A stretch of 43,999 bases of DNA. Origin: a virus. The notes beneath the pieces were generated by a model. The model was not told where the DNA came from. It did not search any database and worked only from the letters and a program-made list of their open reading frames with translations. This document shows, one piece after another, positions 23,834 through 41,866 of this stretch. How positions within the stretch are numbered: the stretch's first letter is position 1; each line of letters starts with the position of its first letter. The translations under genes and the position numbers were made by a program. The stretch lies in IMG/VR virus record IMGVR_UViG_3300028550_000711, positions 1 to 43,999 of that record; one strand, 5' to 3'.

Positions 23834-24739
23834 TTATCCGCCTTCGGTGCCAAACACGCCACGCCAGTCGGTGACGCCAAAGCTGTAACGCTCTCGTACT
23901 TTATAGCGCACGTTTCCAGTTTCGAAGTCGCCTTCCATGCCTTTTTTCATGGCTGAACGCTGGAACATTTTCAGTCCGTCAGGCACGTCAGTCTGAACAA
24001 AGAACGCATCGCCATCTGTCAAACGGCGCATAATGTGATAGCCCTGTGGCAGATAGCCACCAGCCTTAATCGCATTAATGTCGTTGTCGGCAGTACCTGT
24101 GCGAAGCTGGCTTTCCAGCAGACGCTCTGCAACAAACTGATACGCAGTTGGGATGATTAACTGAGTACCCTGCGCTGCAATCCGAAGGCCACGATCATCT
24201 TTCATATCCGAAATTTGGATAAGAATTGACTCAAGTGATGTTTCGGACAGATCAGCCGCCGTGGCAAGCACGTTGGACTGAATGCCGTTCTGTGTTGGGT
24301 GCGATGCACTCAACAATACAACGCCGTCACCACCATTTACACCAGCGGTCTGTGCGTTATTCAAGACGTTTGCAGCCTTGATTTCTTTGGTCGATGCCAT
24401 CGACCGTGCCAGTGCCTTGGTGTACCGTGACGCCAAGCTACCATACTGACCATCCTCTTCAGCTTCCTCAGTGATTGAGAACGCCAAGGCGACAGTTTCG
24501 TGCTGGTAACGCGCAGTCCATTGCTGACCTGCTTGGTCGTAGGATACTGATCCACCTTCAGTTTTCGTTGGCGCTAGGCCAAATCCACTGAGAAGCAAAT
24601 CTTCTTCGTATGCCTTTTGCGAGGTATTCGATTCAAAGACAGCTTCGTATTCTGCTGGATAGCGGTCGTACTCAAGTCCAAAGAGAGTGTTCAGACCCGG
24701 CTCTAGTGTTTTCGCAAAACTTGCTCTATTCATTGCCAT
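23834..24739 (-). CDS. Major capsid protein, HK97-fold (Mu gpT-like)
   Basis: A 301-residue protein with AGGAGGGT before its ATG (24739). It begins MAMNRASFAKTLEPGLNTLF; has FESNTSQKAYEEDLLLSGFG, a Thr/Gly loop, SITEEAEEDGQYGSLASRYT, a long helix with Ala/Ser, LLSASHPTQNG, LIIPTAYQFVAERLLESQL, and ends VRERYSFGVTDWRGVFG. These are the typical marks of capsid proteins of the Mu gpT-like HK97-fold group. No N-terminal delta domain, so the separate scaffold is used instead. Position after decoration and scaffold genes and a strong terminator fits high expression. Confidence 0.85.
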   Translation of the reverse strand: MAMNRASFAKTLEPGLNTLFGLEYDRYPAEYEAVFESNTSQKAYEEDLLLSGFGLAPTKTEGGSVSYDQAGQQWTARYQHETVALAFSITEEAEEDGQYGSLASRYTKALARSMASTKEIKAANVLNNAQTAGVNGGDGVVLLSASHPTQNGIQSNVLATAADLSETSLESILIQISDMKDDRGLRIAAQGTQLIIPTAYQFVAERLLESQLRTGTADNDINAIKAGGYLPQGYHIMRRLTDGDAFFVQTDVPDGLKMFQRSAMKKGMEGDFETGNVRYKVRERYSFGVTDWRGVFGTEGG

Positions 24740-27325: not shown

Positions 27326-27389
27326 TCTTCACGCCTCCTGACATAGCTACGCCAGTAACGTGAATTGTGACGTCTTTATTTTCTGGCAT
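27258..27389 (-). CDS. Very small hypothetical ORF
   Basis: A 43-residue frame, MPENKDVTIHVTGVA start, with GAGGGG 6 bases before the ATG, which overlaps the stop of the Lys-rich micro-gene (TAATG). It overlaps the next gene by 68 bases in another frame. The C-terminal part is low complexity and hydrophilic. The ribosome site and coupling support it, the strong overlap weakens it. Confidence 0.35.
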   Translation of the reverse strand: MPENKDVTIHVTGVAMSGGVKNDSQRSAPADQKKSGDKTAGNS

Positions 27390-27481
27390 TAATATCCCCT
27401 CTTCATTGCTTTCTTCTTAGTCTTCTTTACCATTTTCTTTTTCTTTACAACCTTTGCAGGTTTTTTTTTGCCATAATTCAT
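27389..27481 (-). CDS. Lys-rich micro-protein
   Basis: A 30-residue peptide, MNYGKKKPAKVVKKKKMVKK start and KRGY end, about half Lys. A perfect AAAGGAGG lies before its ATG. Such a basic peptide would bind DNA or RNA. It is one of several Lys-rich mini-genes in the late region and lies between the 301-aa gene and the head genes. Confidence 0.55.
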   Translation of the reverse strand: MNYGKKKPAKVVKKKKMVKKTKKKAMKRGY

Positions 27482-27518
27482 TGTCGATCCTCCTTTCAAG
27501 AGTGATGAGAAGCTGGCT

Positions 27519-28424
27519 CTATTCATTGTAAAAGACCGACATTCGCTGCGGTCTACTAATTTCGGGATTACGCTTTAATTCTTCCAAAGACATAACCCCC
27601 GCATCATCAAAAACATCAGCGGGGTTTTGCATTTCCATCAGCCTTGCGCGTTCTGAGGCTGTCATGGGCGACCCATAGATTAAGTCATCAAGCTGCTGGG
27701 CCGTTAGGGGCGTGTCTGCTTGTGATGGCATCGGCTTTTTTAAGACGCCCAAGGCACCAAGCGGATCAATATCAGCCCTTGGTGCGTCACTGCGGCCATA
27801 CTGCCGAAGGCTTGCTATGCTATTTGCCTTCATGTCATCCATGACCGATCCGCCGCCAAAAACCTTATTTTTAAAACGGCGCAAAAATGGACTGACGTAT
27901 GGATTTGTTCTTTTGGCTATTTTTATAGCCGTACCCAAAGCACCAGAACCAAGGGCGGTGAATACACCTTCATCAATCCCTTTTTGCATTCTGTCTTCAA
28001 AGCCTTCGCCTGTCGCTGCTCCATAAGCAAAGCCAACGCCACCACCAAGGGCTGTTGCCCCTACGGGGCTTTTAGATAAAACTTGAAAAGCGCGTGGCCC
28101 TGCCGCAAACATTGTCGGTATTGCTCCCGCAATTTCAGCACTTAAAGCTATACCGGGGTTTTCTTTAGAGAATTGATTTATTTCGCCTTGCACTTGGGTC
28201 AGGGCATCGTTGAAACTCACGCCGTCTTGCAATAGAGACCTGACCGCAGCCTCCACTTCATCGCCTGTGCCAAATGTCAGACCTTGTACTGCCGCCCTTG
28301 CGCCACCCTTCGTAAACAGTGGTCTTATGTCAATCGCGTCTGAATTGTAATCACTCATCATGCGATCCATGTCCTCGCGGGACAGGTTCGATAAATCAAA
28401 AGGTAAGTTATCCATTTCAGCCAT
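27519..28424 (-). CDS. Virion-type protein with Gly-zipper membrane patch
   Basis: A 301-residue protein. N-terminal FDLSNLSREDMDRMMSDYNS, then ARAAVQGLTFGTGDEVEAAV, a helix, NPGIALSAEIAGAIPTMFAA and GATALGGGVGFAYGAATGEG, a Gly-rich hydrophobic pair like those in ejection proteins. The second half is charged with RQYGRSDAPRA and a Pro-rich end. The LTFGxGDE...NP...AEIAG pattern is familiar from phage internal virion proteins. It follows the tagged gene cluster and may be ejected with it. Function inferred. Confidence 0.55.
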   Translation of the reverse strand: MAEMDNLPFDLSNLSREDMDRMMSDYNSDAIDIRPLFTKGGARAAVQGLTFGTGDEVEAAVRSLLQDGVSFNDALTQVQGEINQFSKENPGIALSAEIAGAIPTMFAAGPRAFQVLSKSPVGATALGGGVGFAYGAATGEGFEDRMQKGIDEGVFTALGSGALGTAIKIAKRTNPYVSPFLRRFKNKVFGGGSVMDDMKANSIASLRQYGRSDAPRADIDPLGALGVLKKPMPSQADTPLTAQQLDDLIYGSPMTASERARLMEMQNPADVFDDAGVMSLEELKRNPEISRPQRMSVFYNE

Positions 28425-28615
28425 CAGACCTGTCCTCCAGACAATTCACGCGCCAATATTTTTAGGGTATCAGCAAAGCCCTTGTCTAGTTCCTTTGCCG
28501 CCATGGCAAACTTGCGGGGCGATATATCGCTTGTCTTTAATCCGCGCCGCTCCAGAAAACTCTTGGCCGCTCTGATCTCAGCCTGCGCTACCTTTTTAAT
28601 TGCTGCTCTTGCCAT
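28424..28615 (-). CDS. Small basic helical protein
   Basis: A 63-residue protein, Ala/Lys/Arg-rich, helical throughout (IKKVAQAEIRAAKSFLERRG, then MAAKELDKGFADTLKILARE). Stop and start overlap by one base on both sides (TAATG with the ART-like gene upstream). No family recognised. The charge would suit nucleic-acid or virion-protein binding. Confidence 0.5.
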   Translation of the reverse strand: MARAAIKKVAQAEIRAAKSFLERRGLKTSDISPRKFAMAAKELDKGFADTLKILARELSGGQV

Positions 28616-29499
28616 TACATTCCCTCTTCTTTTTCTCTCAGTGCCGCAGCAAGTCCACTAAATCCTATAGTGCTAAGAATACTAGCAGATAAATTTGCTA
28701 AATTACGAAACTCTGGATCAAAACGGGCGAACTCAGAGCGAACTAAGTTAGGAGATAATCTAACGTCAACATTTGAAGGCTTGGAAAGCTCTTGTAAATA
28801 TTGCAAGCGCAAAGCCTCTTCTTCAGCAGGTGTATACCCTAAGTTTTTAAATTGAGTAGAATTAACCCCCGGCCCTGTGTCGTTAATGTTTTTGAACTGA
28901 ACACCACTTAGGCCAGCTTGTTTAGCGGCTTGCTCTATGTCGCGGGTAGAAGTTGACATTGATCCATCGCCAAAACTACTAAACCCATAGCTAACATCTA
29001 GTTCAGGATTGGATTTATTCACTTCATCAATATCAAATTGGTTCCAGTTTTTGCCTTTACCTTCAACAACTGCATCGCCAAGTTTGCTTCCAAGGCGCAA
29101 AGGGTAAATTTGGGCATCTGCGCTGCCCCTTGCATACGTGCTTGCTAAAGTTGGGTTGTCTGAAGTGAACACGCTTCCTTGAAAGCCAGATATATCTTCG
29201 TTTGTTCCGTGGTAGCCTTTTCTTGGGAACATCTCGTCAGCCCTAGTATCTCTTGATACTTTACTCATGTCTATTGGCGTGTTGGCATACATATACGGAT
29301 CGTCTGCCGCAGACATCATCTGCTCAGTGACTTCATCTGATCGACCAGCCTGACGCAAAACAAGAATGCGCTTTGCCATCTCTTCAGCCTCATTACGGGC
29401 ATCAGGTAACGCTCCAAACTTCCTGCCTAAGTAGTTGGCCAAGTCTTTGCCAACATCGCCAAAGACAGCCCTTCCAGCCTCGCCCATAAGATTTGCCAT
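28615..29499 (-). CDS. Tagged ADP-ribosyltransferase-like protein 1
   Basis: A 294-residue protein. Residues 1-32 are the shared tag (MANLMGEAGRAVFGDVGKDL). After a helical linker comes KGYHGTNEDISGF (YHGT at 96-99), then VFTSDNPTLASTYA and IYPLRLGS. YHGT, a fifth-strand TSDNP...A..YA, and a following strand are the order seen in ADP-ribosyltransferases of polyvalent phage proteins. The end has VDVRLSPNLVRSEFARFDP, then a hydrophobic stretch and an acidic tail. It would move ADP-ribose from NAD to a host target if active; the catalytic Glu could not be placed. First 87 bases nearly equal those of the next gene. A non-enzymatic ART relic is possible. Confidence 0.62.
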   Translation of the reverse strand: MANLMGEAGRAVFGDVGKDLANYLGRKFGALPDARNEAEEMAKRILVLRQAGRSDEVTEQMMSAADDPYMYANTPIDMSKVSRDTRADEMFPRKGYHGTNEDISGFQGSVFTSDNPTLASTYARGSADAQIYPLRLGSKLGDAVVEGKGKNWNQFDIDEVNKSNPELDVSYGFSSFGDGSMSTSTRDIEQAAKQAGLSGVQFKNINDTGPGVNSTQFKNLGYTPAEEEALRLQYLQELSKPSNVDVRLSPNLVRSEFARFDPEFRNLANLSASILSTIGFSGLAAALREKEEGM

Positions 29500-29501
29500 T
29501 A
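29415..29501 (-). repeat. Direct repeat copy 1 (tag-coding DNA)
   Basis: 87 bases matching 30554-30640 with 82 identities and no gap, covering the start codon and tag of two adjacent genes. It points to recent gene duplication or gene conversion, and makes recombination between the two genes possible. Confidence 0.85.
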
Positions 29502-30638
29502 CGCGATCCCTGTATTTTGAGCGCCAGCCAATGCGCCTGCGTCCGACATTATGTCATCACTGTCCCGCTTGTCTACGTCATAGGCTGCATTGGGCGATCT
29601 GATGTCAGAAGGATTTAGAATAATCATGCTGTCTGGCGAATATCGCTGCGTTTCCAAATCGTCACGCAAATCCATAAGTTGATTTTCACGGGTTATTTCC
29701 TCTGGTGTTCTAAAATTCATTGGAGAATTTTGCATATTATAATTAAGAAACGCCTGCACTCTCTTCTCTGCCTCTCCTCCAGCCAGTTGAGCGTCAGCAT
29801 CAGGTAATGTAGCTTCTGGTGGCCTTGCCGCCTCAAGTCGAGCATTTGCAACGTCACTTAAAGTCGCTAATTCTTTTTTTATCTCAGCGATCTTGGACCT
29901 TGCTTCTGGTAGGATTTCCCCCATGCCTCCTGACGTTGTTTCCACGATGTTTTTATACACAATGCCATCGTATCCAGCCTTTTGAATTTGTGTGTTAATT
30001 ATCTCAAGCAGTTCTCTGTTTTCCATGCTGTCGATCCAATCATCTGGATCACCATATTTACCAATGGGATCGCCCATCGCAATGTCATCGAAGGCTTCCA
30101 TTATTTCGTTTATATTTATACCAGAGCTTTGGTATTGTTGCTTTTCAAGTTCTTCAATTACTTTGGAACTGTTTTTCCAATTACCAACGTCAGGCATTCT
30201 AAGTGGATTATGTACGTTTATACGAACGGGCATGACCTTTGCGTCTGGTATGATTGGTGGGTTGTCGCTATCAAAATCACCATAACTTGGAATTTCTTTC
30301 TTGGCTCTCGCAACGGCCAGAAGGCGCTCATTTGCCTGTTCTGGTGTGCCAACGTGTACGCCCAGATCAAGCATATTTTGATCAAACTCTGAGAAGTCGC
30401 CACGGGTGCCGTGATAATACATATCTGGGCTAAACTCTTCAAAGAACGCCTGATCTTCTGGCGATCTACGCAGCGCACCTAACGCTGTTTGAGGAGAATT
30501 TGAAGCAGTCATCGGAGGCTCAATACGTTGAGCATCTAACTCTGGCAGCACACCAAACTTCCTGCCTAAGTAGTCGGCCAAGTCCTTGCCAACATCGCCA
30601 AAGACAGCCCTTCCAGCATCACCTATAAGATTTGCCAT
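29499..30638 (-). CDS. Tagged ADP-ribosyltransferase-like protein 2
   Basis: A 379-residue protein. The tag (MANLIGDAGRAVFGDVGKDL) is followed by a Pro-rich linker and DMYYHGTRGDFSEFD (YHGT at 75-78), LGVHVGTPEQANERL, MPVRINVHNPLRMPDVGNW, IQKAGYDGIVYKNIVE and MIILNPSDIRSPNAAYD. YHGT, HxGTxxxA and AGYDGIVYKN are hallmarks of the ART fold found in prophage polyvalent proteins. Charged tail at the end. It likely modifies a host protein after injection, as T4 Alt does, but this is inference and the acidic catalytic residue is uncertain. It overlaps both neighbours by one base. Confidence 0.68.
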   Translation of the reverse strand: MANLIGDAGRAVFGDVGKDLADYLGRKFGVLPELDAQRIEPPMTASNSPQTALGALRRSPEDQAFFEEFSPDMYYHGTRGDFSEFDQNMLDLGVHVGTPEQANERLLAVARAKKEIPSYGDFDSDNPPIIPDAKVMPVRINVHNPLRMPDVGNWKNSSKVIEELEKQQYQSSGININEIMEAFDDIAMGDPIGKYGDPDDWIDSMENRELLEIINTQIQKAGYDGIVYKNIVETTSGGMGEILPEARSKIAEIKKELATLSDVANARLEAARPPEATLPDADAQLAGGEAEKRVQAFLNYNMQNSPMNFRTPEEITRENQLMDLRDDLETQRYSPDSMIILNPSDIRSPNAAYDVDKRDSDDIMSDAGALAGAQNTGIA

Positions 30639-30640
30639 TA
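30554..30640 (-). repeat. Direct repeat copy 2 (tag-coding DNA)
   Basis: Partner of 29415-29501: 87 bases with 5 mismatches, over the start of the second ART-like gene. The gene upstream (30638-32092) carries the same tag at protein level but with clearly more DNA divergence. Confidence 0.85.
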
Positions 30641-32092
30641 CTGGGCCTCCTCGTCTTCATCTATCTGGCTTAACGCACCCAGACCAACTGCCACTGGGGC
30701 TGTTGCTGCCGTGAGGTTTGGTAGCTGCGATAGGCGCGGATCAAACATTGCATTCGGACTGCGTACTTTTTTGGGATCAAGCTCAACCCTGTGCGTGGCT
30801 CCCGCTGGGCCGAAGCCAAAAGTTGTTCCCGCCCTTGGCAAATCAATGGCGTCAAATCCTGCGTTTCGATAGACCTGATTTAAAATCTGGCCCGGCCCAG
30901 CTTGGTCGGGGTCATAGTAATTACTGTTGTAATTGGTTCTAAATATTCTTTCTAAATCTTCTGCGTCAATTTCGCCATAGTCATCAAGGTGCATATATAG
31001 TTCAGACCTAATATTGTCATATGCGTCAGTGCCATTATCTGGCAAGTTATCCAGCAAGTCATCAATAATATCAACCGCTGGCCCCTCGCGGTCAAAGCCA
31101 TAGCTGTCATCATTGGCAAGCTCTTCAGCGCGTTCTTGTACGGCCTCACGGTATTCTATCTTATCGGGGTATGCCGACTGATCGATTTCTTTCTCTGCAT
31201 CGTCAATGTAATCCGCTGGGTCTAGCTCCCTGCGTCCACCCTTAAAGACGGTGGCGTCTCTTCCCTCAATGATGACAGGGTTTTCAACGCGATCCACCAG
31301 CTTAACAACCTGACCGCCACCTCGCGTAATTCTGTACTCTGCCAGTGCCTGCATAAAGCCGGGTGGGAACGATCCTGACCTAACCGTACTGTCTGGGTCT
31401 GCGGTGCCAAAAACATCTTCAACAAATTCTTCAAATTCAATGCCGTCACCCGTTGAGAAATAATCACGGCTCATTAATTCATTGTAACGATCAACAACTT
31501 TCTGTGCATCCTTGGGATCGATGTTTGAATTTCTAATGGCCTGATGCTGCAATAGCTGGGGTATTAGCTGCACTTCAGCCTTGTTCATATCATCAAACAT
31601 AAAATTGGCGGCGTCATACAAATTACTGCTGTCAGTAATTCTATCAATCTCCATATTGACTTGATTTCTTACGTCTGGGCCTGTCAGGGACGCATAATTA
31701 TCGCCTGCGTCACTAGGGTCGGTGGATGTGTACAGACCGCCCCCACTGTGCGCCTGACCGCTGTATGTGCCGCTCTCTGTGCCTTCCAGCTTGGCCTGTG
31801 GGTTCATGTAAACGTCACTGGGGTCGGCCATGTATTCTATTTCATCAAAGCCGCCGTGATACCGATCTGCGTCGAAGTCAAAGCCACCCTCACGGCCACG
31901 CTCCAGCCTGCTTGCCGTATCAGTCGGCAGATCATAGTTCTCCACTAAAAACTGCTTGTCAGCGGCTGAATACATTTCGGGGGTGACCTCTGCGCCACGG
32001 CCCATGCCTAATAAGTCGAGAATTTTACGCGACACGTCTTTCCCGACATTTCCGAAAACCGCTCTACTTGCATCACCTATAAGATTTGCCAT
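30638..32092 (-). CDS. Tagged ADP-ribosyltransferase-like protein 3
   Basis: A 484-residue protein, the largest of the three. It opens MANLIGDASRAVFGNVGKDV, has DRYHGGFDEIEYM (YHGG at 78-81), HSGGGLYTSTDPSDAGDNYA, a helical middle, VVKLVDRVENPVII, a large acidic insertion (PADYIDDAEKEIDQSAYPDK), then VYRNAGFDAIDLPRAG and VELDPKKVRSPNAMFD, ending with a hydrophobic patch and acidic tail. This has the same order of elements as proteins 1 and 2, with an acidic extra domain of about 150 residues. It is probably a virion-carried effector. The first catalytic His is kept in a YHGG form. Confidence 0.62.
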   Translation of the reverse strand: MANLIGDASRAVFGNVGKDVSRKILDLLGMGRGAEVTPEMYSAADKQFLVENYDLPTDTASRLERGREGGFDFDADRYHGGFDEIEYMADPSDVYMNPQAKLEGTESGTYSGQAHSGGGLYTSTDPSDAGDNYASLTGPDVRNQVNMEIDRITDSSNLYDAANFMFDDMNKAEVQLIPQLLQHQAIRNSNIDPKDAQKVVDRYNELMSRDYFSTGDGIEFEEFVEDVFGTADPDSTVRSGSFPPGFMQALAEYRITRGGGQVVKLVDRVENPVIIEGRDATVFKGGRRELDPADYIDDAEKEIDQSAYPDKIEYREAVQERAEELANDDSYGFDREGPAVDIIDDLLDNLPDNGTDAYDNIRSELYMHLDDYGEIDAEDLERIFRTNYNSNYYDPDQAGPGQILNQVYRNAGFDAIDLPRAGTTFGFGPAGATHRVELDPKKVRSPNAMFDPRLSQLPNLTAATAPVAVGLGALSQIDEDEEAQ

Positions 32093-32093
32093 A

Positions 32094-32351
32094 TCACCAC
32101 GCCTTGCAAGACCAGTATCTGGCCTTAGTTTTGGGGCCGGGGTTATCGCAGTTGTGACGCGCCCTAAAATTAGATCGTCGGCCCTTTTGGTTTTTCTTAA
32201 TGGTCATGTTGGGATCGCCAAAGGTCACGCGCTTTACCCTATCGCCGTCCGTAACGTATACCACAGACTTCTTCTTGCCGTAAGAGGTTTCGCCCTTGGA
32301 AATGCGGCGGGGGTTGTTTAGCTTTACGCTCTTGCCCTTGTACGTTGCCAT
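32094..32351 (-). CDS. Small basic conserved phage protein
   Basis: An 85-residue basic protein: KSVKLNNPRRISKGE, VVYVTDGDRVKRVTFGDPNM, then a highly patterned C-terminus with RARHNCDNPGPKTKARYW and SCKAW. The RARHNCDxPGxKTxARYWSCxxW ending is one I recall from marine phages and giant viruses; two Cys and a His may bind metal. It lies directly upstream of ART-like gene 3 and overlaps the previous gene by one base. Probably a virion or DNA-binding structural protein. Confidence 0.65.
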   Translation of the reverse strand: MATYKGKSVKLNNPRRISKGETSYGKKKSVVYVTDGDRVKRVTFGDPNMTIKKNQKGRRSNFRARHNCDNPGPKTKARYWSCKAW

Positions 32352-33031
32352 TAGTCTGTGTCCTTTGGTATTAATGTGTCCAGAACATCGTCCAAAGTAG
32401 TGTTATGATCAACAATTAATTCTCCACCATGAAATCCACTAAACCCCGCCTGCCCGTGTTCTGTCGCCATAAAATCTCGTCGTGGAGAATAAGGCAGTTC
32501 GTGGTCGCTAATCCGAACATCTCCAGATGGTGTCTCAACATAATAGCTGCTTACATTGCCGTTTCTATCTGTTGATTTTTTCACGTTGTAACCTAACTTT
32601 CTGGCCTCACGGGCTGCAAATAAAAGATTGTCTTTTGTGGCAATTCTTGCCGCCTGTTCAGCTTCGGCTTTCATAATTCTATCAAGCATATTGTTGTGAT
32701 ATTCTAAATCTGCTGCGTTCTTTTGACCAATTACTGTCGGCGTTCTAAATTCTCTTGTTGCTGCGGCTGAAATCAAGGGGTCTGTGAAATTCGCGCCCTC
32801 TGCTCTTTGAGCCTTCAAGTCTCTAATTTGTCTAACTTGGTTCTGGCTAATATCAAGACCCTGCTCCCGTGCCGCACGGGCGGTTGCCTTTGGCGTGTAA
32901 GATTTTGCCGCAACCTCTGCCATAAATGGATTAGACGGCAACGCGCCAATCTTGCGGCTAAGGGTGTCAACAATATCTTGCCCAACACCCCTAAACAGTA
33001 CCTTGCCTAATGTCCCAATTGGGTTTGCCAT
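32351..33031 (-). CDS. Tagged protein 4
   Basis: A 226-residue protein. It starts MANPIGTLGKVLFRGVGQDI followed by DTLSRKIGALP, the tag in a more divergent form. The body is a helical middle (QVRQIRDLKAQRAEGANFTD) and a beta-like end: LGYNVKKSTDRNGNVSSYYV, ETPSGDVRISDHELP and GGELIVDHNTTLDDVLDTLI. The VETPSGDVRISDHELP segment is one I recall from polyvalent prophage proteins. Not an ART. It is coupled by single-base overlaps to both neighbours. Presumed virion passenger; role unknown. Confidence 0.55.
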   Translation of the reverse strand: MANPIGTLGKVLFRGVGQDIVDTLSRKIGALPSNPFMAEVAAKSYTPKATARAAREQGLDISQNQVRQIRDLKAQRAEGANFTDPLISAAATREFRTPTVIGQKNAADLEYHNNMLDRIMKAEAEQAARIATKDNLLFAAREARKLGYNVKKSTDRNGNVSSYYVETPSGDVRISDHELPYSPRRDFMATEHGQAGFSGFHGGELIVDHNTTLDDVLDTLIPKDTD

Positions 33032-33594
33032 TAGTCGCCGCCTCCAAACAAATCATCATACTCTTGATCAATAATTTTTTGCTCTGCTTCTGATCTTTGT
33101 GTTTTTTCTGTAGCCCGTCTTGCCGTTCGGCTTGGAGCAACAAATGGCATTTGCTCTAACCCGTCTGGGCCAAGTGCCGCTGTAAAAGACCCAACCTTAT
33201 CCGCTCTTTGTTCACTTAATCCAGTAACTGGATTGCTAATAGCTTGAAAGAAAACCTTTCCATTTGGTGCTTGTATTTCATAACCGTATAAATCTGGGTT
33301 GTGAATATCCCCCTTATAACCTATTACTTTATGTACTTCATGTGGGTAACCTTTTCTCCTAGCTACTTGGCCTCCTATTGGCATTAATTTAGTTCCCAGA
33401 GGAAGAGGTAGCTTGCCTTCAGAATTTAATTTTTTACCAATCTCATAAGGCAAATTCATCGTATAAGGCATATCTTCAAGTACACCCCTAACTTTGTCTA
33501 TAAATTTTTGTCTAGTAACCTCTGCGCCTGATGTAGAAAAATCAATTACATTCCCAAACAGTGCCCTGCCTAATCCTCCAATTGGGTTTGCCAT
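33031..33594 (-). CDS. Tagged protein 5
   Basis: A 187-residue protein beginning MANPIGGLGRALFGNVI, the tag shortened to about 17 residues, then a helix, and a beta-rich core (TKLMPIGGQVARRKGYPHEV, HKVIGYKGDIHNPDLYGYEI, QAPNGKVFFQAISNPVTG). The last 50 residues are charged (SRTARRATEKTQRSEAEQKI) with an acidic end. It looks like a small beta-barrel plus tails. It lies between tagged protein 4 and the 169-aa gene. No family recognised. Confidence 0.55.
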   Translation of the reverse strand: MANPIGGLGRALFGNVIDFSTSGAEVTRQKFIDKVRGVLEDMPYTMNLPYEIGKKLNSEGKLPLPLGTKLMPIGGQVARRKGYPHEVHKVIGYKGDIHNPDLYGYEIQAPNGKVFFQAISNPVTGLSEQRADKVGSFTAALGPDGLEQMPFVAPSRTARRATEKTQRSEAEQKIIDQEYDDLFGGGD

Positions 33595-34103
33595 TATTCG
33601 CCGCCCCTTATTAATCCCATCATAGCATCAATGACAGATTTCTGCTCATCCGTATAGTATTCTGGTTCCCATTGACCGACAGCATACCCGCGAATAAATG
33701 CGTCCTTGCGGGATACCTCGTTCCACTGTTCAAATGGCCTTTGCTCACCGCGCTCTTGCACATCATTAAAATACATTTCAACATCGTGCTGCAATTGATC
33801 TGGCGTTTTTAGGCTTTGCAGTATCTCACGCATTTCTGCGTATTCTGGACTGCGTCGAGGAGCTTCATGCAGATATTCGCCAATAATTGCCTGCTCTAGT
33901 TCTTCGCCTTGCAAGGAGGGATCAAAGACTTCGATCAATGGGCTGTTATACCTATCGTCGTAGGCTTCGGTAAACTCTAACTTTCGGCCATTCTGAATGC
34001 CTGAGTTTCGTTGATCAGAAACCTCAATGTCAGAGAACATAGGATATTGCTCTCTGATACCAGCCAGTGCGCCGATTTCCCCCCGTGCGTAATTGTCAGG
34101 CAT
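33594..34103 (-). CDS. Hypothetical protein of the tagged cluster, without tag
   Basis: A 169-residue protein with an acidic, mostly helical body: EQYPMFSDIEVSDQRNSGIQ, LIEVFDPSLQGEELEQAIIG, EYLHEAPRRSPEYAEMREIL, LQHDVEMYFNDVQERGEQRP and a C-terminal AFIRGYAVGQWEPEYYTDEQ. GEYLHEAP has E-x-x-H-E like a metal site but not a full HExxH, so peptidase activity is not claimed. The start overlaps the previous micro-gene's stop by TAATG. Possible partner or immunity-like protein for its neighbours; unproven. Confidence 0.5.
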   Translation of the reverse strand: MPDNYARGEIGALAGIREQYPMFSDIEVSDQRNSGIQNGRKLEFTEAYDDRYNSPLIEVFDPSLQGEELEQAIIGEYLHEAPRRSPEYAEMREILQSLKTPDQLQHDVEMYFNDVQERGEQRPFEQWNEVSRKDAFIRGYAVGQWEPEYYTDEQKSVIDAMMGLIRGGE

Positions 34104-34213
34104 TATTTTTTCTTCTTCTTTTCCTTCAGCCTTTTAAAGTCAGCCCCATTGATTTTATTTTTGGGCTTGGCCTGCTTGGCAATATTTTGCTGCGCCTTGT
34201 TTAGTTTTTTCAT
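34103..34213 (-). CDS. Lys-rich micro-protein
   Basis: A 36-residue peptide, MKKLNKAQQNIAKQAKPKNK start, ending in six Lys or Glu-Lys residues. Its ATG overlaps the previous stop (ATGA) and its stop overlaps the next ATG (TAATG), so it sits in the coupled chain. About 40 percent Lys; would bind nucleic acid or acidic protein surfaces. Too short for homology. Confidence 0.5.
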   Translation of the reverse strand: MKKLNKAQQNIAKQAKPKNKINGADFKRLKEKKKKK

Positions 34214-34383
34214 GCTTTTTTGGCCTTTTTCTTTGCGGTGTCCGACAGGTCTTTCATGTGGACTAAGAACTTACTGGACGCCGTGTGCTTTGCGCCAGAC
34301 ATAACCTTGCCCTTGGCATCCTTGTGGGTAGCGCCCTTATGCTCGACGCCGTTCTTAAAGTAGTGCTTTACGCCTTTAGCCAT
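34210..34383 (-). CDS. Small basic His/Lys-rich protein
   Basis: A 57-residue protein from the ATG at 34383 (MAKGVKHYFKNGVEHKG), with GGAG 6 bases ahead. It has THKDAKGKVMSGAKHTASSK and a helix-like LVHMKDLSDTAKKKAKKA end. A short beta-hairpin GVKHYFKNGVEHKGATH plus a basic tail is a form I have seen among marine phage small structural proteins. It overlaps both neighbours by a few bases. Probably a minor virion or DNA-bound protein. Confidence 0.58.
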   Translation of the reverse strand: MAKGVKHYFKNGVEHKGATHKDAKGKVMSGAKHTASSKFLVHMKDLSDTAKKKAKKA

Positions 34384-34519
34384 TATGATACTCCATTTCA
34401 ATTTCAGCGTCTTGACGCTTCATGTCTGCTTCAATCGCAGCATCTTCAATTGCTTCCTCTATAGCATCTTCTTCCCATTGCTCTTCAAAATCATCGGGAT
34501 CGTTATTTAAAATACCCAT
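34376..34519 (-). CDS. Small acidic protein
   Basis: A 47-residue peptide starting at 34519 (MGILNNDPDDFEEQWEEDAI), nearly half Asp and Glu; its ATG overlaps the stop of the previous gene. An acidic helix (EEAIEDAAIEADMKRQDAEI) makes it a good candidate for shielding or carrying one of the very basic neighbours. It overlaps the basic 57-aa gene by 8 bases, so they are coupled and may be made in equal amounts. Confidence 0.5.
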   Translation of the reverse strand: MGILNNDPDDFEEQWEEDAIEEAIEDAAIEADMKRQDAEIEMEYHNG

Positions 34520-34761
34520 TATTTCTTGCCTTTCCAGTTTACGCGCTTTGCAGATGTCTTGCGCTTTGATGCCGACTTGGCAGACTTGCTTTTGCATTGT
34601 GCCATTGTGGGGCGACAGGCGGGGTAACCTCTTTTGCTTTTAGCAGTTCTAGATTTACGGCCACAAGGCTTGCCTGTTTTGCAGTCAACCCAGCCCTTGC
34701 CTTTGTTCTGACCGAACCAGTCTTTCAGACTGTTGCCGCTACTTTTTTTTGCTTTTGCCAC
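34519..34761 (-). CDS. Cys/Lys-rich small protein
   Basis: An 80-residue protein with a GTG start at 34761. Core: SLKDWFGQNKGKGWVDCKTG, KPCGRKSRTAKSKRGYPACR, PTMAQCKSKSAK. Four Cys (VDCKTGKPCGRK and YPACRPTMAQC) could bind zinc. The LKDWF...GWVDCKTGKPCGR...YPACRPT pattern is a small family (DUF5872-like, from memory) common in marine phages and giant viruses. The basic C-terminus (SKRKTSAKRVNWKGKK) suggests DNA or RNA binding. Confidence 0.65.
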   Translation of the reverse strand: MAKAKKSSGNSLKDWFGQNKGKGWVDCKTGKPCGRKSRTAKSKRGYPACRPTMAQCKSKSAKSASKRKTSAKRVNWKGKK

Positions 34762-34915
34762 TTTTATTGCCCCAGTTTTTTGCGCCGACCTTGCGGCATT
34801 TCACTAAAGCGCCAGAGCCATAGGCTGACGGCCATGTCCCACCGTTGCGCGTATATCGCGCCTTGACCTTACTGTAGCAGGCGTCTCGCTTGGCTTTCTT
34901 TTTCTTTGCCGCCAT
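34739..34915 (-). CDS. Small basic conserved phage protein
   Basis: A 58-residue protein. It begins with KKKKAKRDACYSKVKARY, then GTWPSAYGSGALVKCRKVGA and KNWGNKS. The CYxKVKxRY...WPSAYxSGALVKCRKVGAxNWGN pattern is a highly conserved one in marine phages as I recall. Two Cys, many Lys; probably a virion structural or nucleic-acid-binding element. It starts 4 bases after the end of the 386-aa gene and overlaps the next gene by 23 bases. Confidence 0.68.
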   Translation of the reverse strand: MAAKKKKAKRDACYSKVKARYTRNGGTWPSAYGSGALVKCRKVGAKNWGNKSGKSKKK

Positions 34916-34919
34916 TAGG

Positions 34920-36080
34920 TCACTCCGATTGCTTCAAAGATTCAAGATACGCACTGATTTCGTCAACCATTTGCTGATCCACTCTTTGCCTGTTGTACGG
35001 CGACATCATAAACGATCTAGTGTCATCGCCTGTTTTTGCACCAGATGCCCTGCGTGACGCAAAGTAATCCCTCCAGACCATACCCCCCGGCACATCGTAT
35101 GGCAACGCGCCTGCATATTCACCAGCAACCTGATGACTATAAGTATCGTGAGGCGCAAAAATCAAGTTTCTAGGGTCGGTTGTATTCGCACCCCTTCTTG
35201 GCTTCACTTCTCTGGCGGGGCCATCCATAGTACCAATTGCACGGCCTGTGGCAAAAGTCGGTGTTGTTAAAAGCTCTCGCTCTGTAATGGCCGCTCTAAT
35301 GACCCCAACATTTGGAAACCCAACTTTTACATATTTATCTTTATCCATTTGCTGCCACAGCAAACGTCTTTTTGTACCCGTCATATTGTTATTTATATAA
35401 TCACGGGCGTTAGGGCTTAGAATACCGGGCCAATTTGGGTCGTTTGGCGAGTCTTTTCCTCCACCTTTTCTTACCCATTTATCATATTCGTTTGCAGCTT
35501 TTTTGGTAATTTTACTTTGCTCGATCATTCCCATTGTGGCGTTTGACATCATTTTGGAAAAGTCGCCAGATTGAGCAGCCATAGACGTGAACATCAATCG
35601 CACATCTTCTTTGTCTTCGTTTTGAAGAAATTCTGAGAATTTACCTTTTATAGTCATTGGGTCTTTTTCAGATGCCCATATGCCATCTCCAGCAGAGCGC
35701 ATAAATTGATTGCCGCCTTGCATATTAACAGGCTGGGAAAACGTAGTGTCTCCAATGCCCCTAAGAGCGCCCCCAGCATAGGTTCTGTCGCCATACGCTG
35801 GTATCAGCATTTTGCCTTGCAACGCGCCAATATTTAATTCTTTTCTGGGCTGCAAAGAACCATCTGGCACAAAGTCGTATTGAATATTTTCGACAAAATC
35901 TGGTAGCTTCACGCTTCCCAAACCAGCAGGATCAAGCATTTTTTTTGTAGGTCGTTTGAAGATTTCTGCAAGAACAGAATAATCACCAGCATCAATAAGT
36001 TTTTGCTGAACCTCAGTAACGCCAGCCTTGGCAAGTTCAAAGGCAAGCCTTCCAAATAATCCTACTGGGTTTATCCCCAT
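34920..36080 (-). CDS. Tagged protein 6, large unrecognised protein
   Basis: A 386-residue protein. N-terminus INPVGLFGRLAFELAKAG is a diverged tag (NP-x-G-L-x-G-R-x-x-F). It goes on with QYDFVPDGSLQPRKELNIGA, a Gly-rich patch, GDGIWASEKDPMTIKGKFSE, a helical part, NEYDKWVRKGGGKDSPNDPN, FPNVGVIRAAITERELLTTP, HQVAGEYAGALPYDVPGGMV and a C-terminal helix. FPNVGxxRxAxxD/E...P followed by GEYxGxLP is a pattern I recall from polyvalent phage proteins, but I cannot name the domain. No obvious catalytic motif. Likely a virion-carried protein; it starts one base after a micro-gene. Confidence 0.52.
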   Translation of the reverse strand: MGINPVGLFGRLAFELAKAGVTEVQQKLIDAGDYSVLAEIFKRPTKKMLDPAGLGSVKLPDFVENIQYDFVPDGSLQPRKELNIGALQGKMLIPAYGDRTYAGGALRGIGDTTFSQPVNMQGGNQFMRSAGDGIWASEKDPMTIKGKFSEFLQNEDKEDVRLMFTSMAAQSGDFSKMMSNATMGMIEQSKITKKAANEYDKWVRKGGGKDSPNDPNWPGILSPNARDYINNNMTGTKRRLLWQQMDKDKYVKVGFPNVGVIRAAITERELLTTPTFATGRAIGTMDGPAREVKPRRGANTTDPRNLIFAPHDTYSHQVAGEYAGALPYDVPGGMVWRDYFASRRASGAKTGDDTRSFMMSPYNRQRVDQQMVDEISAYLESLKQSE

Positions 36081-36215
36081 CTACTTGCCCTTTTTCTTCT
36101 TGCCGTATCCGCTGGCGTAGGCAGCACGGCCCTGCTTGGCAGCTTCGGCCTTGGTCTTATAGACCTTGCCCTTGCTGCCCCAGCGGTAGCCGCCCTTAAC
36201 CTTCATGACGGGCAT
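36081..36215 (-). CDS. Small basic conserved phage protein
   Basis: A 44-residue protein: MPVMKVKGGYRWGSKGKVYK then TKAEAAKQGRAAYASGYGKK. The KGGYRWGxxGKVYxTxAxAxKQxxAxYASG pattern is a familiar small phage structural family. Gly/Lys-rich with a beta-hairpin and one helix. Its ATG overlaps the stop of the acidic 100-aa gene (TAATG). Coupling is consistent with a real gene although no longer frame exists. Confidence 0.62.
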   Translation of the reverse strand: MPVMKVKGGYRWGSKGKVYKTKAEAAKQGRAAYASGYGKKKKGK

Positions 36216-36517
36216 TAGTGACCGCCAAGCAGCTTGTTCATCATTTCGTGGACATTGCCGCCATCAAGTTTCATAACTTTGACTTTAACGTCACCGCTTG
36301 GCACTTCCATCATTTCTTCCTCAACGTCTTCGTACATATCATCTTCGTACATGGCATCTTCGCTATCGACGCCCATCATGGTGTGGTGGCACAGCAGCAG
36401 GAAGTTCACCAACTGATCGTCGGACAGATCAAGGCCGTCTGCATTGTGTGGGAAGCCCATTTTTTCCATAAACAATTCAGCGTTTGCTTCCATGTTTTCT
36501 ACGTTTACTTCAGCCAT
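36215..36517 (-). CDS. Acidic Met-rich protein
   Basis: A 100-residue acidic protein. It contains MEANAELFMEKMGFPHNADG, LDLSDDQLVNFLLLCHHTMM and a low-complexity Asp/Glu/Met patch (DDMYEDVEEEMMEVPSGDVK), then a C-terminal helix (HEMMNKLLGGH). The strong negative charge next to a row of very basic mini-proteins suggests a partner or chaperone. AGGAGGCTG precedes its ATG. No family recognised. Confidence 0.52.
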   Translation of the reverse strand: MAEVNVENMEANAELFMEKMGFPHNADGLDLSDDQLVNFLLLCHHTMMGVDSEDAMYEDDMYEDVEEEMMEVPSGDVKVKVMKLDGGNVHEMMNKLLGGH

Positions 36518-39127: not shown

Positions 39128-39405
39128 TAGGCCATACCTCTTTGCTGTTCCTGCGCGGGTGGCTGCTGCGCGGGTGGCTGCATGGCACTAGCGATATTAC
39201 TTAACGCTCCCATATCGCCTGCGCCCATTCGCTGCCGAATCTCAGCAACCTTGTCTATTAAATATTTATTCATGTCCATCGGTGGCGGCTGACCCCCACT
39301 TGGGGAGGCAAGCGGGGGCGCACCCGGCTGCGGCGTTTCTTGCGGCAAGCCGCCGAACGCTGCGGGGTTTACAGGGGGCAAGTCATAGGATTGTGGGGGG
39401 AACAT
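39127..39405 (-). CDS. Pro-rich small protein
   Basis: A 92-residue protein with a Pro/Gln-rich N-terminus (SYDLPPVNPAAFGGLPQETP), a helical middle (MDMNKYLIDKVAEIRQRMGA) and a Pro/Gln repeat at the end (AMQPPAQQPPAQEQQRG). It overlaps the portal gene by 23 bases. Flexible Pro-rich ends plus one helix suggest a small docking protein for the portal or for internal proteins; not recognised. Confidence 0.52.
   Translation of the reverse strand: MFPPQSYDLPPVNPAAFGGLPQETPQPGAPPLASPSGGQPPPMDMNKYLIDKVAEIRQRMGAGDMGALSNIASAMQPPAQQPPAQEQQRGMA
39152..39181 (-). repeat. 15-base tandem repeat
   Basis: TGCGCGGGTGGCTGC is present twice in direct tandem (39152-39166, 39167-39181), coding for the PPAQQPPAQ part of the Pro-rich protein. 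Copy number may differ between relatives. Confidence 0.85.
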
Positions 39406-41866
39406 TCTTCATTGCCTCCATTTGAATTTTTGCGGCGTTCTTTTCTCGCTCTAGCTGCAATTCTGCCTCCAGCTTAGTAACCTTTGCCTGCAAGTCTGCC
39501 TGCGCCTTAGCTGCATCGATCTGCATGTCCTGACGCGCCTCTGCCTGCTTAATCTCAATACTGGACTTGGCCTTCGCCTGATCCGCTTGGATTTGCGCCT
39601 GCGTTCTGGCTTTAAGTGCCTCTGTCTCAAGCTGTGCAAGCTGCTGTGCGTATTGCAGCGGATTGCCCTGACCCTGCTGACCCTGCTGACCCATCATGCC
39701 ACGCATGGCCTCGATTTGCTTCATCTGCGGTGCGGCCTGCACAACCTCTGCCGCACGTTGGCTAATAACGCGATCAAGTTCTGGATCGACCTCTTCAAAC
39801 TTAAACTTGGGGTCTCTGAAGTTTGGCAGTGGCGGCAGTTCCATTGCCACGCCTGCCTGCATTCTAAGGCGATACAGCAGCGCGATATGCTCCGCGATAT
39901 GCGCGATTAGAATTGGCCCCATTGTCTTCTGTGCGGCTGGATTGCCTGCCAGAGAGGGGTCTTGCATGAACTGCATGTGAACCGCAATGTGGGCATCGTG
40001 ATCCTGCTCCAAGAATGCACGAATTGGCTTGCCATACATGACACTCATATTTTCATCGATGGGGTCCATTTGCACAGCCTGCTCTGGCTTTTGCAAGATT
40101 TCATCGATGTTGTTTATGCGTAGCGCCTCGTACATCCGCTTGTAGGCTTCGTAAAGATCGTGAAGCTGTGGCGCTGACTGCGCCATTTGCAGGACGGCCT
40201 GCGCCTGCGAGATGCGCTGTGCGGTGCTGAATATGTTGGGGTCCGACACTGGCACGATGTCAATTCGGTCATCAAAGTCAGCGGCGTAAACGATTTCCGC
40301 TGCACCAGCCACTGCGAAGGTAAATTCTTCTGGCAGGTTTTCTGCGTTTAGAGCCGCCAGCATTTTAAATTCTTGGCCCTGCGAGTAGTGCAGTCGCTTG
40401 TGAATTGCTGAGAACGACTTACTGCCCTGCTCAATTAGGGCGACCGTTGATCCAACTGGCGCGTTGGGATTTACGTCACCAACATTTAGATCGGCAGTGC
40501 TGGCAAAACGCTGGCCTGCCTCAACCATAAAGCCAAGCAGATTAAACAAAGAGCCTGACGGTTCCTTGAAGGGCAGGGGCATTATGGCTTTATTCACGTC
40601 ATCGACGGTACTGTCGAGATCAACAAATTCACCGGGACTGATCTGCATATCGCCGCCTTGAACACGGCCACGCAGCTTAAAGCCACCCTGCATATTGCTA
40701 AACGCTGCGGAATCTAAGAGAGCGCGGAGCGATCCCGTGGCTGCTTTGCCTAGTCCACCGATCATGTGATACAGGCCAAAGCCGTAGAAGCCCAAGCCCG
40801 GTAGGAACTTATAGCTCACAAACCAGTCGCGGCGTTTTTTTGTCTCATCGTCCTCGCGCCAATTGCGTCTGACGCTGACAACTTTCTGATTATCGTAATC
40901 GATGGTAATGACGTAGGGCAGCGCGACAGCGTTCTCGTCGGCCTCGTCCTCATCCATTTCTTGGCCGTCAATGCCGTCGAACAGATCATAGACGTGCATT
41001 TCCAGCAGTGTCATGGTGCCGTCTTCACTGCTGTCGCCGTACTCATCGACGCCCTCGATTTCGCCAATGGTATCGCCGCTGCCTGTTCCGATACCGTCTC
41101 CACCATCATATTCTGTCTGGAGATAGTAGCCGTTTTGAACGTACTTATTGTAATCGTTCTTTGGCATTCTAATGACGTGGGTATATCGGGGGGAGGTGTA
41201 GAGGTCTTTGGTCTCTGGTGCCACGCAGAAGTCTTCGGCCTTCACAAAGTCGCTGCACTGTCGATTTAGGTTTACGTTCCACCAAACCTTCTTGAACGTC
41301 TGACCTACCAGCGGCAGGTGAAACAGCATTTGATCCAAGTCTGGAAAGTATGAGACCATTTCGTTTTGGATTTGCCAGTTCATAAACTCGCGCACCCTAC
41401 GGCCCTGCTCCTCGATTTTTTCGTCGGGATCGCCAATAATGACGGTCTTAATTGGACCGCCTGACGGGTAAAGCTCTGCAATGGCCTTGGCATTAAACTG
41501 GGTTGCCGCTTCAGCGATTAGGGGGTGAACAACGATGGACAGTCCACGGGTGGCGCGTTCATCATCGCCCTGATCTAAACCACCATCTGGGTCTAAGGTA
41601 CGCAGCCCTGCCTTGTATCGTTCAAGCCATTCTGATCGGGAGGCTTCATCGTTTTCGTAAAAGCCGATTAGCTCTTGGCCTTTTCGGGCAAGCTCACGGG
41701 CATCGATTTCTTCTGCGAGGTTTTTGTCGAACTCTGCCTCACCGATTTCGTCTTGCATGTCTAGCTCTGGATCACCGATTAGAACGTCACCGTCTGGGAG
41801 TTCTTCGACCATCAGGTCATCTAGGGGCGATCCTTCAGCGAACGGAATAATATTTGGGTCAGCCAT
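39383..41866 (-). CDS. Portal protein
   Basis: An 827-residue protein of the size of large podovirus portals. After an acidic N-terminus come SRSEWLERYKAGLRTLDPDG, LIAEAATQFNAKAIAELYPS, LPLVGQTFKKVWWNVNLN, YKFLPGLGFYGFGLYHMIGG, NVGDVNPNAPVGSTVALIEQ, then helical clip and crown parts (YALR-type AYKRMYEALRINNIDEILQK). The last 170 residues are a Gln/Ala/Lys coiled coil (QAKAKSSIEIKQAEARQDMQ) that likely forms a long barrel entering the capsid, as in P22. It overlaps terL by 8 bases. It forms the 12-mer through which DNA enters and leaves. Confidence 0.88.
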   Translation of the reverse strand: MADPNIIPFAEGSPLDDLMVEELPDGDVLIGDPELDMQDEIGEAEFDKNLAEEIDARELARKGQELIGFYENDEASRSEWLERYKAGLRTLDPDGGLDQGDDERATRGLSIVVHPLIAEAATQFNAKAIAELYPSGGPIKTVIIGDPDEKIEEQGRRVREFMNWQIQNEMVSYFPDLDQMLFHLPLVGQTFKKVWWNVNLNRQCSDFVKAEDFCVAPETKDLYTSPRYTHVIRMPKNDYNKYVQNGYYLQTEYDGGDGIGTGSGDTIGEIEGVDEYGDSSEDGTMTLLEMHVYDLFDGIDGQEMDEDEADENAVALPYVITIDYDNQKVVSVRRNWREDDETKKRRDWFVSYKFLPGLGFYGFGLYHMIGGLGKAATGSLRALLDSAAFSNMQGGFKLRGRVQGGDMQISPGEFVDLDSTVDDVNKAIMPLPFKEPSGSLFNLLGFMVEAGQRFASTADLNVGDVNPNAPVGSTVALIEQGSKSFSAIHKRLHYSQGQEFKMLAALNAENLPEEFTFAVAGAAEIVYAADFDDRIDIVPVSDPNIFSTAQRISQAQAVLQMAQSAPQLHDLYEAYKRMYEALRINNIDEILQKPEQAVQMDPIDENMSVMYGKPIRAFLEQDHDAHIAVHMQFMQDPSLAGNPAAQKTMGPILIAHIAEHIALLYRLRMQAGVAMELPPLPNFRDPKFKFEEVDPELDRVISQRAAEVVQAAPQMKQIEAMRGMMGQQGQQGQGNPLQYAQQLAQLETEALKARTQAQIQADQAKAKSSIEIKQAEARQDMQIDAAKAQADLQAKVTKLEAELQLEREKNAAKIQMEAMKNVPPTIL

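Follow-up and report, generated by a model that had tools for sequence, protein, structure and literature searches.

The closest described systems to the genes considered here are the internal head proteins of phage T4 (IPI-III), with Alt and the T4 core, which are likewise small lysine-rich phage proteins encoded with late genes and whose lysines contact the packaged DNA (PMC3012670), and two kinds of fused phage protein, T4-GC119 (S-SM2_109, phrog_727) and the XkdF-fused proteins (phrog_7595). We compared with these a set of tiny, highly charged genes ("micro-genes") among the late genes of a 43,999-base IMG/VR virus record (IMGVR_UViG_3300028550_000711; hereafter, the window), a contig of a Roseobacter CRP-901-type phage. 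We tentatively favour, at somewhat less than an even chance, a reading in which the virion head module of marine phages would include a repertoire of small lysine-rich modules, shared and reshuffled among these phages, and the micro-genes would be that repertoire in separate pieces.

Purifying selection on the small genes

The initial annotation had described a chain of five overlapping genes at 34103-34915, a pair at 36081-36517 and further lysine-rich genes at 32094 and 27389, and all of these were found with the overlaps that it gave. A search with the 80-residue gene, C80, recovered at least 590 related viral contigs, 80 of which were fetched; the loci being picked by C80, counts for C80 are biased upwards, and the genes in fetched contigs were called by a simple script and not by a gene finder. 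All collection scans likewise used the best 80 loci, such that frequencies are not population estimates. The small genes, with lengths in amino acids (aa) and overlaps in nucleotides (nt), are as follows.

36215-36517, minus strand: a100, acidic protein of 100 aa, net charge -19, with the Shine-Dalgarno sequence AGGAGG upstream; 40 homologues in the fetched loci.
36081-36215, minus strand: b44, basic protein of 44 aa, net +13, motif KGGYRWGSKGKVYKTKAEAxxQGRAA; phrog_31267.
34739-34915, minus strand: DUF5872-like basic protein of 58 aa, net +18, DACYxKVKxRY...WPSAYGSGALVKCRKVGAxNWG; phrog_727.
34519-34761, minus strand: C80, Lys/Cys protein of 80 aa, net +24, GTG start, GWVDCKTGKPCGR...YPACRPTMAQC; family of at least 590 viral contigs.
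34376-34519, minus strand: acid47, acidic protein of 47 aa, net -16, overlapping C80 by 1 nt; poorly conserved, 7 loci.
34210-34383, minus strand: HK57, His/Lys protein of 57 aa, net +11 (15 Lys, no Arg, 5 His), overlapping acid47 by 8 nt; 35 homologues in the fetched loci.
34103-34213, minus strand: K36, Lys-rich protein of 36 aa, net +13 (14 Lys), with a PKNKINGADFKRLK core, overlapping HK57 by 4 nt; 19 homologues in the fetched loci.
32094-32351, minus strand: HVA85, basic folded module of 85 aa, net +18, FGDPNM...FRARHNCDNPGPKTKARYWSCKAW; phrog_7595.
27389-27526, minus strand: K45, Lys-rich protein of 45 aa, net +17; similar to the 44-aa gene CRP901_gp63 (MNRASFGKLMSKGEQKMMYGKKK...).

Charge alone was partly surprising. 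Small open reading frames (ORFs) with an absolute net charge per residue of at least 0.17 numbered 10 against a mean of about 6 under a Markov null (95th percentile, 10-11) and are unremarkable because the strand is A-rich, whereas the 5 ORFs reaching at least 0.29 are clearly unusual (null mean, 0.17; maximum, 2 in 200 simulations). Chance ORFs on an A-rich strand were ruled out for the basic genes by codon-level selection, measured as the median pairwise ratio of nonsynonymous to synonymous divergence (dN/dS) over pairs with synonymous divergence (pS) between 0.05 and 0.6. This ratio was 0.055 for HVA85, 0.09 for the 58-aa gene, 0.10 for C80, 0.12 for HK57, 0.13 for a100, 0.14 for K36 and 0.17 for b44; poor conservation of the frames was thus seen for none of the basic genes tested (0.055-0.17), and the basic families are real genes under strong purifying selection. 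Across the 80 fetched loci, median best identity was 76-89% for the C80, HVA85, b44 and 58-aa families, whereas the 386-aa neighbour reached 32% and a 564-aa protein 44%. The overlap by which the start of C80 reaches into the preceding 58-aa gene (23 nt in the window) also recurs: of 78 loci, 53 have it at 17, 20 or 23 nt and another 12 at 1 nt.

These families are widespread. Significant profile matches were obtained for b44 (phrog_31267, E=4.5e-9, residues 1-35 to profile positions 1-36 of 56), for HVA85 along its length (phrog_7595, E=1.1e-12, residues 3-85 to positions 9-96 of 96) and for the 58-aa gene (phrog_727, E=3e-16), the last of which matched DUF5872 (PF19197) over the same residues at 19.3 bits (E=0.0018; curated cut-off, 27.5 bits). 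At least 504 viral contigs carry the b44 family, which also occurs in Aeromonas, Streptomyces, Escherichia, Vibrio and other Roseobacter phages, and at least 516 carry the 58-aa family, found besides CRP-901 and CRP-902 in 184 cyanophage and other records at E<=1e-5. HK57 is present in the isolates CRP-902 and CRP-207, and its conserved start gives 34210-34383 and not the longer 63-aa version with a TTG start (to 34401); a K45-like unannotated gene lies in the matching stretch of CRP-902 as well. The known relatives of the modules are all annotated "unknown function", an NCBIfam search returned no matches for the micro-genes, and a scan of 84,980 bacterial and archaeal genomes gave only 22 loci, nearly all on contigs of metagenome-assembled genomes. 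Lysine greatly outnumbers arginine in the window modules except HVA85 (14 Lys, 9 Arg), and four cysteines of C80 (Cys26, 32, 48 and 55 in A1 numbering; 27, 33, 49 and 56 in A8) are invariant in 25 and 51 sequences. Metal binding by C80 is plausible on account of these cysteines; its AlphaFold2 model is poor, with a predicted local distance difference test score (pLDDT) of 54, and its weak PDB profile match is to ZNF512 (E=0.011).

The orthologues of HVA85 in CRP-901 and CRP-902 (gp67 in both) carry the annotation "HVA1 family protein". Reading the 85-aa gene in this way was rejected, given no match to Hva1_TUDOR (PF11160) and indeed no Pfam match; the name seems to have been transferred, because PF11160 in some phages is a domain of its own that precedes HVA85 at the N-terminus, as on one fusion of HVA85 with XkdF (L198).

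Modules alone, overlapping and fused, and their neighbours

Across phages, the modules are found as stand-alone genes, as overlapping genes and fused with one another. A second large group of phages, in which 242 contigs matched, encodes the 58-aa and C80 modules in the same order as a single 113-146-aa gene, seen in all 80 loci fetched. Nearly all of these loci also have an HVA85-family ORF (79 ORFs in total), which lies directly upstream in each of the five inspected, and in the single locus tested a major head protein (phrog_1328) follows downstream. Further combinations include a 307-aa protein uniting C80, DUF5872 and HVA85 (L254), HVA85 joined to a weak b44-family match (L267, L268) and, in a DUF5872 scan, longer proteins of C80-DUF5872 (n=21) and DUF5872-HVA85 (n=6) type. 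The C80 and DUF5872 modules are also carried by S-SM2_109 (T4-GC119) of a cyanomyovirus, which sits between gp16 and gp17.

Other fusions involve a prohead protease. In Roseobacter phage CRP-6, gp55 joins the HVA85 module, in front, to an XkdF-type prohead protease (PF14550, E=7e-18); its gene and the capsid gene belong to one gene run. Later scans revealed the XkdF C-terminal signature on 24 of 102 HVA85-bearing ORFs, confirmed by Pfam in the three tested (PF14550 E-values on such fusions, 7.9e-17 to 5e-19). A Foldseek search with HVA85 returned the module in other phage proteins alone, most of them uncharacterised and one bearing the name XkdF. HVA85 is fused to cytidylyltransferase-like proteins as well; virions of the cyanophages S-SM1 and S-SZBM1 contain cytidylyltransferases (PMC3037559, PMC9146016), a link to HVA85 at family level only. 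Separately, XkdF proteases of marine phages (L196, L192, L198) bear varied small N-terminal domains (ChaB, DUF5824, Hva1_TUDOR, HVA85), giving the impression that every phage attaches a prohead module set of its own.

The gene neighbourhoods repeat this association. The minus-strand late genes of the window run from the terminase large subunit to the portal, the micro-gene region, GroES, a scaffold-like gene and the major head protein. Among ten C80 neighbours scanned in other phages were major head proteins (L064, L067), a structural protein (L067) and a terminase (L016), the remainder giving no match or families of unknown function, and in P-SCSP2 a C80 relative lies between the scaffold and major capsid protein. 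Of the neighbours to which a name could be given, most encode head or packaging functions (portal, major head protein, scaffold, terminase). Both the location of the micro-genes, flanked by the portal and major capsid genes, and the fusions to XkdF-type prohead protease agree with a role connected to the head, and the modules probably act inside the virus head.

From here we infer a location in the virion, DNA binding and any injection. The modules would be made late and enter the prohead as core or internal proteins, where their lysines would contact packaged DNA and help to organise or neutralise it, and they would perhaps leave the head together with the DNA. The Cys and His motifs would fold or bind metal, and the tight overlaps would keep product levels similar, such that several genes do what a fusion does in one polypeptide. 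A bolder and more doubtful extension is that these cross-lineage, shuffled, lysine-rich and cysteine-containing modules constitute a capsid nucleoid, a kind of phage chromatin, for which micro-gene clusters and large fusions would be interchangeable means of delivery into the head.

Several observations weigh against a place in the head. Some copies lie outside head operons: beside an M15A peptidase in HTVC106P, beside ribonucleotide reductase genes in Kolga, in small-gene runs ahead of the terminase genes in CRP-3 and CRP-2, and near a DNA primase in an immuto phage. The T4-GC119 region has been described as a mobile cassette (PMC3037559), and no XkdF-type protease was found in the window. 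A T4-like capsid-targeting leader on the fused proteins, sought with a loose regular expression, gave a weak signal, such starts occurring on 2 of 48 fused HVA85 proteins and 3 of 428 others, which is no clear enrichment. A search of roughly 160 kb of the 178 kb of S-SZBM1 yielded none of the modules.

The published S-SZBM1 virion proteome contains an abundant 87-aa protein, SSZBM1_195 (L282/L283), which ranks third by exponentially modified protein abundance index and whose gene adjoins that of the terminase small subunit. Support from virion mass spectrometry by this route was rejected, since the protein is unrelated to the module families and the part of that phage searched (about 160 kb) yielded none of them.

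The copies outside head operons bear equally on an alternative we consider unlikely, that of host-directed regulators: late, perhaps metal-binding, small basic proteins that would act on host DNA, ribosomes or RNA polymerase and would not be virion parts. The near-invariant residues of the Cys4 and Cys/His motifs suggest a specific conserved target. Host regulators would not, however, be expected from the prohead protease fusions or from the repeated placement beside major head protein and portal genes.

Those same neighbours, and the XkdF fusions that put a module in the prohead, could instead indicate capsid cement, decoration or assembly factors that bind shell or portal and not DNA, their lysine richness serving an acidic capsid surface. 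The predicted structure of HVA85 is compatible with this, as its AlphaFold2 model is confident and compact (pLDDT 90.7; predicted template modelling score 0.75) and not a protamine-like tail; searched by fold, this model matched nothing in the PDB at E<1 or in VIA at Z>=2, and profile searches for solved-structure relatives, tried for five families, gave none that was convincing. No link to a shell protein was found, however, and the extremely lysine-rich, probably disordered tails of K36, K45 and b44 resemble polyanion binders, leaving this explanation about as improbable as host regulation.

The context genes of the window are as follows.

39383-41866, minus strand: portal protein, phrog_1216 (E=1e-35).
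34920-36080, minus strand: the 386-aa protein that separates both small-gene groups, its best-hit identity far below that of its small neighbours; family searches of profile libraries gave no match.
33594-34103, minus strand: 169-aa gene after K36, overlapping it by 1 nt.
23834-24739, minus strand: major head protein, phrog_371 (E=1e-17).

Five larger minus-strand proteins (28615-29499, 29499-30638, 30638-32092, 32351-33031 and 33031-33594) share an N-terminus, MANLIGDAGRAVFGDVGKDL / MANPIGxLGRxLFGxV, and two of the five weakly match the ART-PolyVal ADP-ribosyltransferase family (E=4e-5 and 1.4e-3; below the Pfam cut-off). The shared start has the look of one targeting leader carried by what may be injected effectors of the T4 Alt kind. 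A second likeness at N-termini joins K45 (MNRASFSSLLKGG), CRP-901 gp63 (MNRASFGKLMSKG) and the major head protein (MAMNRASFAKTLEPG), and this common start could reflect a shared assembly contact.

Pairing of acidic and basic genes

The initial annotation had suggested that the overlaps might couple the translation of acidic and basic partners into neutral complexes, later used as DNA-condensing or injected nucleoid proteins. Its frames proved real, overlapping and strongly conserved, and the 1-23 nt overlaps do permit coupling of opposite charges that are real and strong; opposite-charge neutral complexes as a general rule did not hold up. Among 21 distinct clusters with an HK57 gene behind C80 or the 58-aa gene, the acidic slot was empty in 14, C80 (once the DUF5872-like gene) running directly into HK57, as C80 does in CRP-902, which lacks acid47. 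The seven with a gene in this slot included four that are strongly acidic (-13 to -16) and three that are nearly neutral (-3 to -5), and acid47, found in 7 loci only, evolves fast (median dN/dS 0.43).

The second pair behaves differently in part. Wherever a locus held both genes (29 of 29), a100 adjoined b44 upstream at -1, 0 or +1 nt, which speaks for such pairing, yet the b44 family was preceded by a100 in just 48 of 76 distinct contexts, with neutral, HVA85 or basic genes, or none, elsewhere. Among isolate phages, a100 was detected only in CRP-901 and CRP-902, and not in the Aeromonas, Streptomyces, Escherichia or other Roseobacter phages that carry b44. Thus a100 and b44 are the only fixed neighbour pair, and only among relatives of the window phage, and could form a specific complex within the CRP-901 group. 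Charge neutralisation is not the rule, because the acidic slot is often empty and b44 often stands without a100, and we rejected general acid-base pairing on these grounds. The fusions found, in turn, link basic modules to one another, and we give the co-translated nucleoid model little chance.

Weakest of all, and very improbable, is that these are mobile modules like NUMOD-type DNA-binding pieces, spread by recombination without a single function, since the wide shuffling among unrelated phages and the cassette with an endonuclease around T4-GC119 (PMC3037559) are set against strong purifying selection, a recurrent head-module position and no endonuclease found beside the window modules.

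Comparison with known phage systems

Few uncharacterised small genes are as widespread in the marine phages examined as these modules, and annotations omit some of them on account of their tiny size and their overlaps. In the published genome of isolate CRP-901 (OQ401623), for instance, orthologues of C80 and the 58-aa gene are present at 41109-41451 and unannotated. The fusions connect the modules with the prohead in a concrete and testable way. Should the modules be located in the head, a single lysine-rich set of interior proteins would be common to many unrelated ocean phages, and such a shared set would bear on how DNA is organised in the capsid and on what enters the host with it.

Compared with the T4 internal head proteins, the window-type modules contain cysteines and are shuffled and fused across phage groups; no sequence relation to the T4 proteins was found, nor a clear capsid-targeting leader in modules of this type. 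T4 Alt has a parallel in the ART-like genes beside the window cluster. The nearest relatives, CRP-901 and CRP-902, share the late module of the window and have counterparts orthologous to its DUF5872-like, C80, b44, a100, HVA85 and K45 genes. S-SM2_109 is alike in its C80 and DUF5872 modules and differs in uniting them in one fused protein of 708 aa that adds DUF192 and DUF6321 domains. Gp55 of CRP-6, finally, carries the same HVA85 module (55% identical), fused there to a prohead protease, whereas the HVA85 gene of the window stands alone.

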